Source: Actinotalea soli (GTDB taxonomy: Bacteria; Actinomycetota; Actinomycetes; Actinomycetales; Cellulomonadaceae). From it: a DNA stretch of 64,000 nucleotides. The position numbers and the translations under genes are program-made. Shown in pieces: positions 4,818 to 16,604 of this stretch. The notes beneath the pieces are model-generated. The model made no database searches. It was not told where the DNA came from and saw only the letters and a program-made list of their open reading frames with translations. How positions within the stretch are numbered: position 1 is the first letter of the stretch; each line of letters starts with the position of its first letter. The stretch covers positions 124,001 through 188,000 of the forward strand of contig NZ_JAGEMK010000002.1 of assembly GCF_017565425.1 (NCBI RefSeq), given 5' to 3'.

Positions 4818-4829
4818 CGGGCTCAGGCG
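4811..4829. terminator. Short hairpin between convergent genes
   Basis: CGCCTGA (4811-4817) and TCAGGCG (4823-4829) pair around a five-base loop. The two stop codons of the convergent genes lie inside the two arms. With only seven pairs and no T-run it is a weak candidate terminator. Confidence 0.3.
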
Positions 4830-9565: not shown

Positions 9566-9726
9566 GGGCCCAGCCTCGCACCTCCGCGCGGGGCCGACCG
9601 CCACGGGTGCGTGGGGTGAGGTGCTTGAACGGAGGGCGCCGCACCGCGACGATCGTGCACGGAGCACTCATCCCGTGGGCGCTCCGGCCGATCACAGGAG
9701 CAGCCCGTCCCGAGAGAGGCACTGCC

Positions 9727-11154
9727 ATGGCGCCCGAGCAGCCCAGCGCCGCTGAGACGCCCCGGCCGCCGCGGCGGCCGCGCGCGACGCGGATCGCCGA
9801 CCTGCTCGACGACGCCCGCGCCCGGATCGGCCCCACCACCCCGCCCACCACGACGGGTCCGCTGCCGGTCAACGAGGTCGAGCGCTCGGTGTTCCGCGAC
9901 CGCCTCACCGGCCTGCCCAACCGGCTCAGCCTCGAGCAGGAGATGACGCGCCTCGAGTCGGCTGCGGCGTCGATGACCGTCGTGGTGCTCGACGTGGACG
10001 ACTTCCGCGCGATCAACGACGCCCGCGGCGCCGAGACCGGGGACGCCGTGCTGCGTGCCATCGGCTCGCGGCTCGCGGGCTACGAGGGCCTGCGGGCCTT
10101 CCACCTGGGCGGTGACGAGTTCGCCCTGCTCGGCGCGGAGGCCAAGGGACCCGCCGGGCTCGGCCTCCTGGTGTCCCGGCTGCAGACCGAGCTCGCCCGC
10201 CCCTGGCTGGTCGGCTCGGTCCCGGTGACGCTGAGCGCGAGCATCGGGGTGGCCACCGGTCCCCTCCACCAGGACATCCGCGGGCACCAGGTGCTGCGGA
10301 TCGCCGACGACGCCATGCACCAGGCCAAGCGTGAGGGGCCGGGACGCGTCGCGGTGCGGGACGAGGACGCGACCCAGCGTCTCGCGCTGCGCACGCGGCT
10401 CGCCGAGCGGCTCGAGGGGGCCGAGGGCCGCGGCGAGCTCGAGGTGTACTACCAGCCGATCCTGCGGGTGGCCGACCGTACCTGGGCGACGGTCGAGGCG
10501 CTGGTCCGGTGGAACGCCCCCGACGGCGTTGTCCCGCCCTCGGAGTTCATCCCCCTGGCCGAGGAGTCCGGTCAGATCAGACGGATCGGCGCCTGGGTCC
10601 TCGAGCGGGCGGTGGCCGACCTCGCTGTGCTGCGCGCCCGCACCGGTCTGACGCCCCGGGTCAACGTCAACGTCTCGGCCGAGCAGCTGACCGACCCCCT
10701 GTTCCTCGGCTCGGCGGCCGACCTGCTGCGCTCCTCGGGCCTCGAGCCACGCTCGGTGGTCCTCGAGCTGACCGAGTCCCTGCTGCTGGTCGACCCCGAG
10801 GCGACGATCTCGGCCCTGACCGAGGCCCACACCGCGGGGCTGGGCCTGGCCCTGGACGACTTCGGCACGGGCTACTCGTCGCTGTCCTACCTGGTGCGCC
10901 TGCCCTTCGACGTGGTCAAGCTGGACCGGTCCTTCGTCACCGAGATCGCGACCTCGACCCGGGCCCAGCGCCTGGTGGGCGCCCTCGTGCAGATCGCCCA
11001 CGACCTGGACATGAGCGTCACGGTCGAGGGCGTCGAGACCGAGGAGCAGCTCGCCGCCCTCGCCGCGGTGGGCTGCGACACGGTGCAGGGCTACCTCTTC
11101 TCCCGCCCCCTGCCGCTCGAGGACCTCATCGCCGCGACGACACCCCGGGCCTGA
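9727..11154 (+). CDS. GGDEF-EAL cyclic-di-GMP enzyme, cytoplasmic
   Basis: A 475-residue protein combining a c-di-GMP synthase and a phosphodiesterase domain. The GGDEF domain (about 55-210) starts near Arg-Asp-Arg-Leu-Thr-Gly-Leu-Pro-Asn-Arg and has the intact signature Gly128-Gly-Asp-Glu-Phe132. No RxxD inhibitory site precedes it. The EAL domain (about 225-470) has Glu257-Ala-Leu, Asn-Val-Asn-Val-Ser, Glu-Leu-Thr-Glu, Asp-Asp-Phe-Gly-Thr-Gly-Tyr-Ser-Ser and the late Glu-Gly-Val-Glu and Gln-Gly-Tyr motifs, so phosphodiesterase activity is expected. There is no membrane segment and only a short N-terminal tail, so no sensor is visible. The c-di-GMP riboswitch about 4.5 kb downstream could read its product. 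The ATG at 9727 follows an AGAGAGG site. Confidence 0.9.
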   Translation: MAPEQPSAAETPRPPRRPRATRIADLLDDARARIGPTTPPTTTGPLPVNEVERSVFRDRLTGLPNRLSLEQEMTRLESAAASMTVVVLDVDDFRAINDARGAETGDAVLRAIGSRLAGYEGLRAFHLGGDEFALLGAEAKGPAGLGLLVSRLQTELARPWLVGSVPVTLSASIGVATGPLHQDIRGHQVLRIADDAMHQAKREGPGRVAVRDEDATQRLALRTRLAERLEGAEGRGELEVYYQPILRVADRTWATVEALVRWNAPDGVVPPSEFIPLAEESGQIRRIGAWVLERAVADLAVLRARTGLTPRVNVNVSAEQLTDPLFLGSAADLLRSSGLEPRSVVLELTESLLLVDPEATISALTEAHTAGLGLALDDFGTGYSSLSYLVRLPFDVVKLDRSFVTEIATSTRAQRLVGALVQIAHDLDMSVTVEGVETEEQLAALAAVGCDTVQGYLFSRPLPLEDLIAATTPRA

Positions 11155-14826: not shown

Positions 14827-15498
14827 TCAGCCTGCGGTGACCTGCGCGGGGGTGGTGCCCGTGATCCGGGCGACGAGGGAGACGGCGCCCTCCCAGTAGC
14901 GGGCGTAGTGCTGGGGATCGGCGTTGCGCTGCACGGTGTGCGCGACGAGGGTCGGGGCCATGGTCTCGCGGCCCTCGACGCGGGCCAGGGCCGAGTAGAA
15001 GCTGCGCGAGCTCGCCGCGGGGTCCATGCGCTCGGCGAGGGTGCCCCAGGCGCCGTTGTCCCGCTGCTGGAAGAGCCCGCGGCTGTCCGGGCCGGCCGTG
15101 TCCCCGTGGTCGAGGACCCGCAGCGAGGACTCCCCCATCGCGGTCATCACGGCGAGGGCCTGGTCGCGCAGGGACAGACCCATGGTGCGGCCGGTCTCGA
15201 CGACGGCGGCCGCGTTGCCCACCTGCTCGGCCGTGTAGCCGGGGACGGTCGGGAGATTCGCCGGGGTCGTCGGCGCAGCGGCCGCCTGGACGGGGGCGGT
15301 CTGCGTCGCGGCGGTCGGCATCGCCACCGTCTGCGTCGGCGCGGTCTGCGTCGCGGCGGTCTGCGCGGCGAGCACCGAGGCGAAGTCCACGGCGGAGGTG
15401 GAGGGGGCGGCCTGGGTCGTCCGAGCGGTCCCGCCGAGGGTGTTGAGGGTGCCCTGGAGGGTCGCGATGCGTGCACTGATCGCGGCGATGCCGTCCAT
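14827..15498 (-). CDS. Transglycosylase-like peptidoglycan hydrolase, possibly flagellar
   Basis: A 223-residue protein. Residues 5-45 form a heptad-like helix (Ile-Ser-Ala-Arg-Ile-Ala-Thr-Leu-Gln) ending Phe-Ala-Ser-Val-Leu-Ala. A low-complexity Ala/Thr/Gln/Pro linker (about 45-85) with a Thr-Gln-Thr-Ala-Pro repeat follows. The C-terminal domain (about 88-223) has a lysozyme-like fold signature, with Gly-Glu123-Ser-Ser-Leu as the likely catalytic glutamate and Asp-Ser-Arg-Gly-Leu-Phe-Gln-Gln. The helix-linker-transglycosylase order resembles muramidases encoded in actinobacterial flagellar operons, which open the wall for the rod. No secretion signal is visible, which fits flagellar export. 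ATG 15498 follows AGGGGG. It is divergent from the c-di-GMP riboswitch, and the motility role is inferred. Confidence 0.7.
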   Translation of the reverse strand: MDGIAAISARIATLQGTLNTLGGTARTTQAAPSTSAVDFASVLAAQTAATQTAPTQTVAMPTAATQTAPVQAAAAPTTPANLPTVPGYTAEQVGNAAAVVETGRTMGLSLRDQALAVMTAMGESSLRVLDHGDTAGPDSRGLFQQRDNGAWGTLAERMDPAASSRSFYSALARVEGRETMAPTLVAHTVQRNADPQHYARYWEGAVSLVARITGTTPAQVTAG

Positions 15499-15608
15499 GA
15501 GCCCCCTGTCCGTGCCGGATGCGGTCACCGGACCCATCGGCCGGGCGGCGGCCGGCGTGAGGGCTCCGCCAGACCTCGCCGCCAGGTGAGGATACGGCCG
15601 GCGCGGCG

Positions 15609-15624
15609 TGTGACATAGATCACT
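15609..15624. promoter_or_regulatory. CRP/GlxR-like binding site
   Basis: TGTGACATAGATCACT matches the consensus TGTGA-N6-TCACA at 9 of 10 fixed bases, including the central TA preferred by actinobacterial GlxR/CRP. It lies about 110 bases upstream of the transglycosylase start and about 80-90 bases upstream of the riboswitch, so it could serve either promoter. Confidence 0.6.
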
Positions 15625-15701
15625 AATGTGATCGCTCAAGGTGTCCGAATTGTCAGACGATGAGAAGAAGGAGTCACGGACGGGGGATCACCGGGACTCA
15701 C

Positions 15702-15785
15702 GTCACGAGAAGGGCAAACCCGCCGAGAGGCGGGGACGCAAAGCCAGGGGCCCCCTCAGGGGCCGCCCAGCCACCGAACGAGCGG
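15702..15785 (+). promoter_or_regulatory. Cyclic-di-GMP-I (GEMM) riboswitch
   Basis: The aptamer core is unmistakable. GGCAAACC (15713-15720) leads into a CCCGCC/GGCGGG stem closed by the GNRA tetraloop GAGA (15725-15728), then the invariant GGGACGCAAAGCC ending at 15745. A second hairpin follows, with GCCCC/GGGGC arms near 15749-15764. The closing tetraloop-receptor side is GCCACCGAA (15770-15778). The start codon of the next gene lies only two or three bases past the aptamer, and the only purine-rich ribosome-binding candidate (GAGCGG, 15780-15785) is in the closing strand. Control of translation is therefore likely. I see no terminator hairpin. Confidence 0.88.
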
Positions 15786-15787
15786 AC

Positions 15788-15973
15788 ATGGACATGAACC
15801 CCGTAGCACCCCTCCCCGCAGTGCTCGCCGCCCAGGCGGCCACCACCCCCACGACCGTCACGGCCCGCTGGGTCCGCGACGGGCTCCAGGTCATCAACGG
15901 CGGGACCGGGGCCCTCGGCTCGGCCGCCGACGCGCGCGCCCTCCTGTCGGGGCTCCCGACCCAGGTGCGCTGA
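15788..15973 (+). CDS. 61-residue orphan protein under the c-di-GMP riboswitch
   Basis: This small gene follows the riboswitch directly, with starts at ATG 15788 or ATG 15794. The product has an Ala/Pro/Thr-rich first 27 residues, then a more structured end containing Trp-Val-Arg-Asp-Gly-Leu-Gln-Val-Ile-Asn-Gly-Gly-Thr-Gly and a short helix ending Thr-Gln-Val-Arg. No clear membrane helix or signal cleavage site is seen. I recognise no family. Its position makes it a probable c-di-GMP-regulated effector, perhaps linked to the divergent transglycosylase. It could instead be a leader peptide, but a convergent gene starts right after it, leaving no downstream partner in its operon. Confidence 0.6.
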   Translation: MDMNPVAPLPAVLAAQAATTPTTVTARWVRDGLQVINGGTGALGSAADARALLSGLPTQVR

Positions 15974-15976
15974 CCC

Positions 15977-16285
15977 TCAGCCGTCCTCGGCCCCGCCGCC
16001 CCGAGTCGGGAAGCCCGTCTCGGGGCGCGGAGCGAGCACCGTGCTCGAGCTGACCGTCGCCGTGCGGCGCAGGATCGCCCACCGACCGTCACGCCGCGCG
16101 TAGAGATCGTCGTACTCCCCCACGCTCAGCCGCCATGTGCCGTCGGCACCACGGGTCAGCGCGTGGGCGACGCTGCGCCCCGACGCGGAGTCGCCGTCGA
16201 CCTCGACCTCGAGGCCCGTGGTCCAGTGCCTGGCCAGGTCACGCTCGTCAGCGCCGCGGCAGTAGTCCACGCCCAGCCGCTGCAC
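15977..16285 (-). pseudogene. SnoaL/NTF2-like protein with an internal deletion
   Basis: The frame encodes 102 residues that match the beginning and end of a SnoaL-type polyketide-cyclase/NTF2 fold. The start has Val-Gln-Arg-Leu-Gly-Val-Asp-Tyr-Cys-Arg-Gly-Ala-Asp-Glu-Arg-Asp, the usual first helix. After Arg-His-Trp it jumps directly to the late strands Glu-Val-Asp-Gly-Asp-Ser-Ala-Ser-Gly-Arg-Ser and Tyr-Asp-Asp-Leu-Tyr-Ala-Arg-Arg-Asp-Gly-Arg-Trp. Some 40-45 residues of middle strands, which form part of the pocket, are absent. The GTG start is uncertain; homology continues upstream of it without a good start codon. The reading frame is intact, so this could be a recent in-frame deletion or a shortened protein. 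I think it is a degraded gene. Confidence 0.5.
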
Positions 16286-16313: not shown

Positions 16314-16604
16314 TCAGGCGGCCTCGCGGCCGGCCTCCTCGGCGAACAGCGGGCGCAGGGCCGCGATGACGTCGAGCCGGTCCACGTCCTTGATCTGCGC
16401 GACCAGGGCCACGCACACGTTGGCGAGGGTCAGGGCGCCGTAGGCCACGGGCGTGGCCCTGTCCTCCGCGCCGGCGACGAGACCCTCGAGCTGAGCCATC
16501 GCGAGGGGCACCGCCTGGCGCGAGGCGACCCGATCGTCCGGGTCCAGGGCCGTGAGGGCGTCGAGCAGTGCGCGGGCGATGCCTTGCTGCTGCTCCGGGG
16601 TCAC
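16314..16604 (-). CDS. Hypothetical helical protein, 96 residues
   Basis: An all-helical, Ala/Leu-rich cytoplasmic protein with no recognised family. It starts at GTG 16604 (Val-Thr-Pro-Glu-Gln-Gln-Gln-Gly). The longer upstream frame overlaps the GNAT gene on the other strand and has a different composition. The helical segments Leu-Leu-Asp-Ala-Leu-Thr-Ala-Leu and Ala-Ala-Leu-Arg-Pro-Leu-Phe suggest a compact bundle. It lies about 28 bases upstream of the SnoaL-like gene on the same strand, so the two were probably co-transcribed. It is divergent from the acetyltransferase gene by about 105 bases. Confidence 0.5.
   Translation of the reverse strand: MTPEQQQGIARALLDALTALDPDDRVASRQAVPLAMAQLEGLVAGAEDRATPVAYGALTLANVCVALVAQIKDVDRLDVIAALRPLFAEEAGREAA

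Follow-up and report, generated by a model that had tools for sequence, protein, structure and literature searches.

A putative c-di-GMP-sensing BldC cassette with an apparently eroded coding sequence in Actinotalea soli

Within the 64-kb stretch of Actinotalea soli DNA that we analyzed, hereafter the window, a 61-amino-acid open reading frame (ORF61) lies directly behind a cyclic-di-GMP-I riboswitch, and we consider it likely that this locus is a c-di-GMP-sensing BldC cassette, probably belonging to the motility regulon, and that erosion has left its protein as a remnant or derivative without the helix-turn-helix (HTH). The computations yielded the aptamer match, the relationship of the cassette to other cassettes of the genus, its promoter-like and CRP-like motifs, and the similarity of ORF61 to the bldC-type genes of one cassette class, type B (Table 1).

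Table 1 Features of the locus and its neighborhood in the window.
Feature	Position	Strand	Evidence
Promoter-like site of FliA type, upstream of the GGDEF-EAL gene	9667-9692	+	Pattern match
GGDEF-EAL c-di-GMP enzyme	9727-11154	+	Pfam EAL 235 bits, GGDEF 92 bits
Divergent muramidase-like wall hydrolase	14827-15498	-	Sequence likeness to 8b2e/8b2h
Promoter-like site of FliA type for the wall-hydrolase gene, CTCA-N16-GCCGAT	15536-15561	-	Pattern match
CRP-like palindrome TGTGACATAGATCACT	15609-15624	+	Single match in the window (0.08 expected); at least 1 in 5/100 shuffles
FliA/WhiG-type promoter-like site upstream of the riboswitch, CTCA-N17-GACGAT	15635-15661	+	Pattern match, one base off GCCGAT
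c-di-GMP-I (GEMM-I) riboswitch aptamer, type-B variant	15703-15778	+	RF01051 score; type-B clade of the aptamer tree
61-aa ORF (ORF61), putative eroded BldC-family paralogue without recognizable HTH	15788-15973	+	ORF list, family searches, profile and DNA comparison, codon usage

The identity of the aptamer is firm. The Rfam covariance model RF01051 (c-di-GMP-I, GEMM-I) matched at 56.4 bits against a gathering cut-off of 35 (E = 2.4 × 10−8), with an alignment spanning the full model (positions 1-87), and this was the sole Rfam match at the gathering threshold in the window. The core elements, namely the GNRA loop, GGCAAACC and GGGACGCAAAGCC, were present both in the sequence and in the covariance alignment. 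A preliminary description of this DNA had called the element a c-di-GMP-I riboswitch with the same core motifs and suggested a check with the GEMM-I model; that check bore the call out, and the coordinates were correct to within one base. Folding of positions 15669-15830 gave an uninformative z of −0.69. The source genome contains three RF01051 matches in all.

Every genus genome that we searched contained RF01051 riboswitches (19 of 19, with 85 matches). Wider sampling detected them in 96 of 200 genomes from the family and, at the level of the order, in 31 of 297 (29 above the cut-off). We sorted 80 of the 85 genus loci by rule and five by hand, confirming the ORFs of the latter; the rule left six loci unplaced, the sixth (L015) being from outside the genus, and L061 and L081, which the rule had classed as small, were entered under other loci. 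Type A, a riboswitch followed by bldC, comprised 21 loci with at least one in each of the 19 genomes (for example L003, L087, L100-L105 and L111), and type B, another bldC-type cassette behind a riboswitch, with FliA-type promoter motifs and CRP-like motifs, comprised 13 loci in 11 genomes. Ten of the type-B loci are intact, one is decayed (L097) and two carry ORF61; nine further genus genomes have this type of cassette with a BldC-type gene. Class C, a riboswitch followed by a microprotein of 47-58 aa, comprised 19 loci, one per genome; the preliminary description had thought a riboswitch operon with a single tiny gene unusual, and in this genus a riboswitch ahead of so short an ORF occurs in each of the 19 genomes. 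The other 32 loci precede larger proteins (17) or short or unclear ORFs (15). At one locus (L090 in G066) two type-B cassettes stand in tandem, 436 nt apart, and at L048, L051, L062, L063, L078 and L119 the riboswitch is followed by a larger protein, some secreted-looking and some EAL-like by eye. Behind the order-level riboswitches of other families, no bldC-like ORF was detected by the motif used at 20 loci (20 of 25 listed matches, one of them contig-shortened).

Both the aptamer and the region upstream of it place the window locus in type B. In a tree of 101 distinct aptamer rows and 79 kept columns, in which many forks are unresolved, the aptamers of the window and of Actinotalea sp. C106 (G125) fell into a 13-row type-B clade with 11 BldC-type rows, L097 among them, and with no other class (support 100/96), and the window aptamer stood beside three intact BldC cassettes (95/81). 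The CRP-like pattern TGTGA-N6-TCACA, with at most one mismatch, occurred in 13 of 13 type-B cassettes, and the FliA/WhiG-type pattern in 6 of 13 in its strict and 12 of 13 in its loose form. Neither the strict promoter pattern nor the CRP pattern turned up at any of 20 loci of type A, 20 of class C, among which two come from other genera, or 12 of the g20 class-C group. Elsewhere outside type B, each of the two patterns was found in 3 of 18 'big' loci, the promoter pattern in 1 of 13 'other' loci and the CRP pattern in 2 of 11 other bldC loci.

ORF61, whose coordinates include its stop codon, begins with an ATG 9 nt past the aptamer, consistent with the start codon a few bases beyond it that had been noted before. 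The single-gene layout also stands, for the ORF list, as we read it, has an acetyltransferase at ~16711 as the following gene in that orientation. The adjoining SnoaL-like gene (window 15977-16285, minus strand) encodes 102 aa. Its alignment with G125 covers 141 positions, and the window copy lacks ~39 aa internally. Family searches with ORF61 returned no Pfam family at E ≤ 1, and thus no helix-turn-helix (HTH_17 or MerR) match, and no meaningful NCBIfam match, with nothing at E ≤ 1 to the BldC model NF033787 (cut-off 77 bits). One type-A and one intact type-B protein score 103 and 97 bits to that model, and the decayed copy L097 in G089 scores 49.6 bits, an intermediate form. Direct scoring with a BldC profile gave 7.6 bits for the window ORF61 and 9.8 bits for that of G125; among 2000 shuffles the best reached 8.2, with one exceeding 7.6 and none 9.8, and none of 2939 real segments of 61 aa, drawn from ten genes of the window, reached 7.6 (highest 2.8). 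The alignment of ORF61 to the BldC profile is collinear up to the C-terminus (hhalign P = 4.7 × 10−4, probability 32%), and vestiges of both the recognition-helix stretch (TVT-RW) and the C-terminal segment (LLSGLPTQ) persist in ORF61. Taken alone, this likeness between the proteins is weak.

At the DNA level the similarity exceeded that of the controls. Scored against ten type-B bldC-type genes, with the decayed L097 included and L118 left out, ORF61 reached 12.9 (window) and 16.8 (G125), values that none of 300 codon shuffles attained in either case; 400 of the 2939 real in-frame segments were scored as well, and none reached 12.9 (highest 10.8). DNA similarity beyond these controls, together with the aptamer clade, argues that ORF61 descends from bldC-type genes. 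The gene neighborhood points the same way: in G119 an intact type-B cassette lies on a contig of 17.9 kb that also carries homologues of window genes, namely a methyltransferase (62%), the muramidase-like gene (59%), the gene at 16314-16601 (70%) and DnaB (91%). The order of these genes differs from that in the window, so positional orthology of the two cassettes is unsupported. Because aptamer clade, upstream region, DNA similarity and the G119 neighborhood all lead to BldC, we read ORF61 as a putative eroded BldC paralogue; the preliminary description of its product as a protein of no known family is right in that no curated family matches, but not in leaving its origin obscure.

Whether such a paralogue still acts is a separate matter, and we give somewhat less than an even chance to ORF61 being a decaying bldC pseudogene, with riboswitch and promoter as leftovers without present output. 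Between the window and G125, ORF61 shows 3 synonymous changes at 53 sites and 7 nonsynonymous changes at 130 (dN/dS ~0.95, Fisher P = 1.0), as decay would predict. In the same genome pair, constraint is evident for bldC of type A (15 synonymous, 1 nonsynonymous; P = 6 × 10−9) and for the microprotein of class C (10 and 5; P = 4 × 10−4), and six neighboring genes have dN/dS of 0.04-0.42; the test on ORF61, however, has little power because it draws on only 10 substitutions. ORF61 has a poor match at the ribosome-binding site (−2.2 kcal/mol; the median is −7.7 in type A and −4.0 in type B, ORF61 rows included), and L097 provides a partly decayed sister copy. Decay sits less easily with a frame that is intact in both species, without frameshift or stop, and with an aptamer and promoter that differ by few bases between them. 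Codon usage is also gene-like, with a GC3 of 0.95 and a codon score of 0.50 that falls within the range of nine neighboring genes (0.46-0.84), while the other five frames score negative.

The same codon usage would suit a working, perhaps fast-changing HTH-less microprotein derived from BldC, for example an antagonist of BldC or of the flagellar program that acts when c-di-GMP changes, a reading that we hold to be possible rather than probable. No constraint was detected on ORF61, and among the 19 genus genomes searched its only close homologue outside the source genome is in G125; the remaining matches (E 0.008-0.05) are none of them beside a riboswitch match. The expectation that the small gene would follow the riboswitch in relatives thus holds for the source genome and G125, and the other 17 of 19 have no close homologue there.

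A precedent for such a microprotein may lie in class C, whose members are separate from ORF61, present once in each of the 19 genomes, and resemble the BldC recognition stretch. Class-C loci (including L001, L004, L007, L011, L012, L021, L028 and L045) share the pattern ..VPPQVLARWAA..PxQ.., in which P-x-Q near the C-terminus is invariant in 14 aligned members, and their dN/dS ranges from 0.14 to 0.70 (17 pairs). The mean profile score of 21 sequences, two from other genera, was 3.9, against −1.17 (sd 0.48) for column-permuted alignments (0 of 300), and the best single score was reached in 1 of 300. By hhalign, ORF61 aligned to class C with P = 4.9 × 10−4 (probability 32%), but class C resembled BldC only weakly (P = 0.026, probability 1.9%). 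In our survey of the divergent strand, which covered 18 of the 19 genus class-C loci (L088 absent), 15 had a strict FliA-type site and 11 the N-terminal signature of the hydrolase, and neither was found at 16 small-ORF loci from other genera. We considered ORF61 as kin of class C on account of its similar tail and similar divergent hydrolase and rejected this, as its aptamer and upstream motifs are of type B; a distant link through BldC may exist. The g20 microprotein (L005, L006, L013, L020, L022-L025, L029, L030, L032 and L033) mostly starts with MDQRG and mostly ends in AA (AAA, LAA or VAA), an ending that we take to resemble putative ssrA-like degradation tails.

That ORF61 is instead a new orphan small gene unrelated to BldC, in line with the preliminary description, is improbable: the lack of a Pfam family or meaningful NCBIfam match and the single close relative would fit an orphan, but its aptamer clade, upstream region and DNA similarity lead to type-B bldC. 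It is very improbable that the divergent wall-hydrolase gene is the target of the aptamer, or that the aptamer functions as an untranslated RNA. The two have an intergenic region in common, with FliA-type matches pointing both ways, but the aptamer is on the strand opposite the hydrolase, 9 nt before an ORF, and the hydrolase has a promoter-like site of its own.

The neighboring genes would link the locus to c-di-GMP and to a flagellar-type promoter class. Pfam matches confirm the GGDEF-EAL enzyme that had been recognized upstream, whose gene ends 4.5 kb before the aptamer. The divergent gene, previously called a transglycosylase, does appear to encode a wall hydrolase, but it had no Pfam match at E ≤ 1 and a single meaningless NCBIfam match (9.6 bits), and by sequence its product resembles the solved muramidase-type proteins 8b2e (E = 4.8 × 10−7) and 8b2h (E = 9.6 × 10−7); homologues occur in G125 (84%) and G119 (59%). 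The pattern CTCA-N15-17-GMCGAT has four matches in the window, where 1.0 is expected and 2 of 100 shuffles reach four, the fourth being at 4822. As one match precedes each of the GGDEF-EAL gene, the hydrolase gene and the riboswitch (in its GACGAT form), the three can be linked, in keeping with the module that had been proposed.

Across the source genome, CTCA-N15-17-GCCGAT occurs 55 times against 4 for a reversed control; the riboswitch's own site is outside these 55 because its −10 element is GACGAT. Nine of them lie within C22:257955-299467, around a flagellin gene (the genome has two flagellin matches), and the first of the nine, CTCA-N16-GCCGAT, lies ~100 nt before that gene. The FliA/WhiG model matched six times at E ≤ 0.001, with one match over the cut-off (C26, 264.8 bits); that at C22:256771 reached 167.8 bits, below the cut-off of 189.6, and lies 0.6 kb before the flagellin gene, and the remaining matches are weaker.

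These elements suggest a cassette that recurs in the genus, in which a CRP-like site and a FliA/WhiG-type promoter precede a c-di-GMP-I aptamer and a small gene of the BldC family (MerR-like HTH). It would be transcribed probably by a flagellar-type sigma factor, and c-di-GMP, presumably bound by the leader, would probably set the translation level of the downstream protein. Direct control of translation by the aptamer, as the preliminary description proposed, is plausible, and translational control is probable because the 9 nt between aptamer and start codon would hardly accommodate a separate terminator. For one specific form, an OFF switch in which the P1 helix masks the Shine-Dalgarno sequence, within-locus pairing exceeded between-locus pairing in none of seven groups (at least 48/300), so the switch may work in either direction. 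Compared with letter shuffles, the same pairing gave 0/300 in the g20 microprotein group, 10/300 in type A, 8/300 in type B, 6/300 in other bldC and at least 54 in the remaining groups. In the lineage common to the window and Actinotalea sp. C106, this paralogue of BldC would have lost its HTH and persist as a 61-aa ORF.

The occurrence of both a riboswitch-bldC and a riboswitch-microprotein locus in every genus genome searched is a more interesting result than the single locus. A wider pattern could be drawn from it, which we regard as speculative and rather unlikely: in the family, c-di-GMP would govern BldC-type regulators directly through RNA, and BldC genes under such riboswitches would repeatedly have been reduced to microproteins without the HTH (ORF61, with class C as a possible further case) that are made or withheld by c-di-GMP and temper BldC or flagellar control. 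If this were true, the second messenger of the choice between motile and sessile life would act through the leader RNA of a conserved regulator, near the promoter class of flagellar genes, and a transcription-factor gene could shrink to a microprotein beneath an intact switch; the one-per-genome microprotein family would be a tractable target for experiments. A search of the open-licence literature found no publication joining c-di-GMP, riboswitch and bldC, and two naming both riboswitch and bldC.

Set beside known systems, the aptamer resembles other RF01051 riboswitches in its full-length match over the curated cut-off and its conserved core, and differs in its targets, which here are bldC, bldC-type and microprotein genes. 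ORF61 is collinear with BldC-family regulators of both type A and type B, but has no match to NF033787 and has lost the HTH core and the GGHRR segment. FliA-type promoters of Actinoplanes missouriensis read CTCA-N15-17-GCCGAA; a CTCA-N16-GCCGAT site likewise precedes the flagellin gene here, differing in the last base of the −10 element and being a prediction. In Streptomyces development, c-di-GMP exerts control through BldD and RsiG-WhiG, and here too it would act near Bld-type and WhiG/FliA-type control, but with a leader RNA rather than a protein as the proposed sensor.
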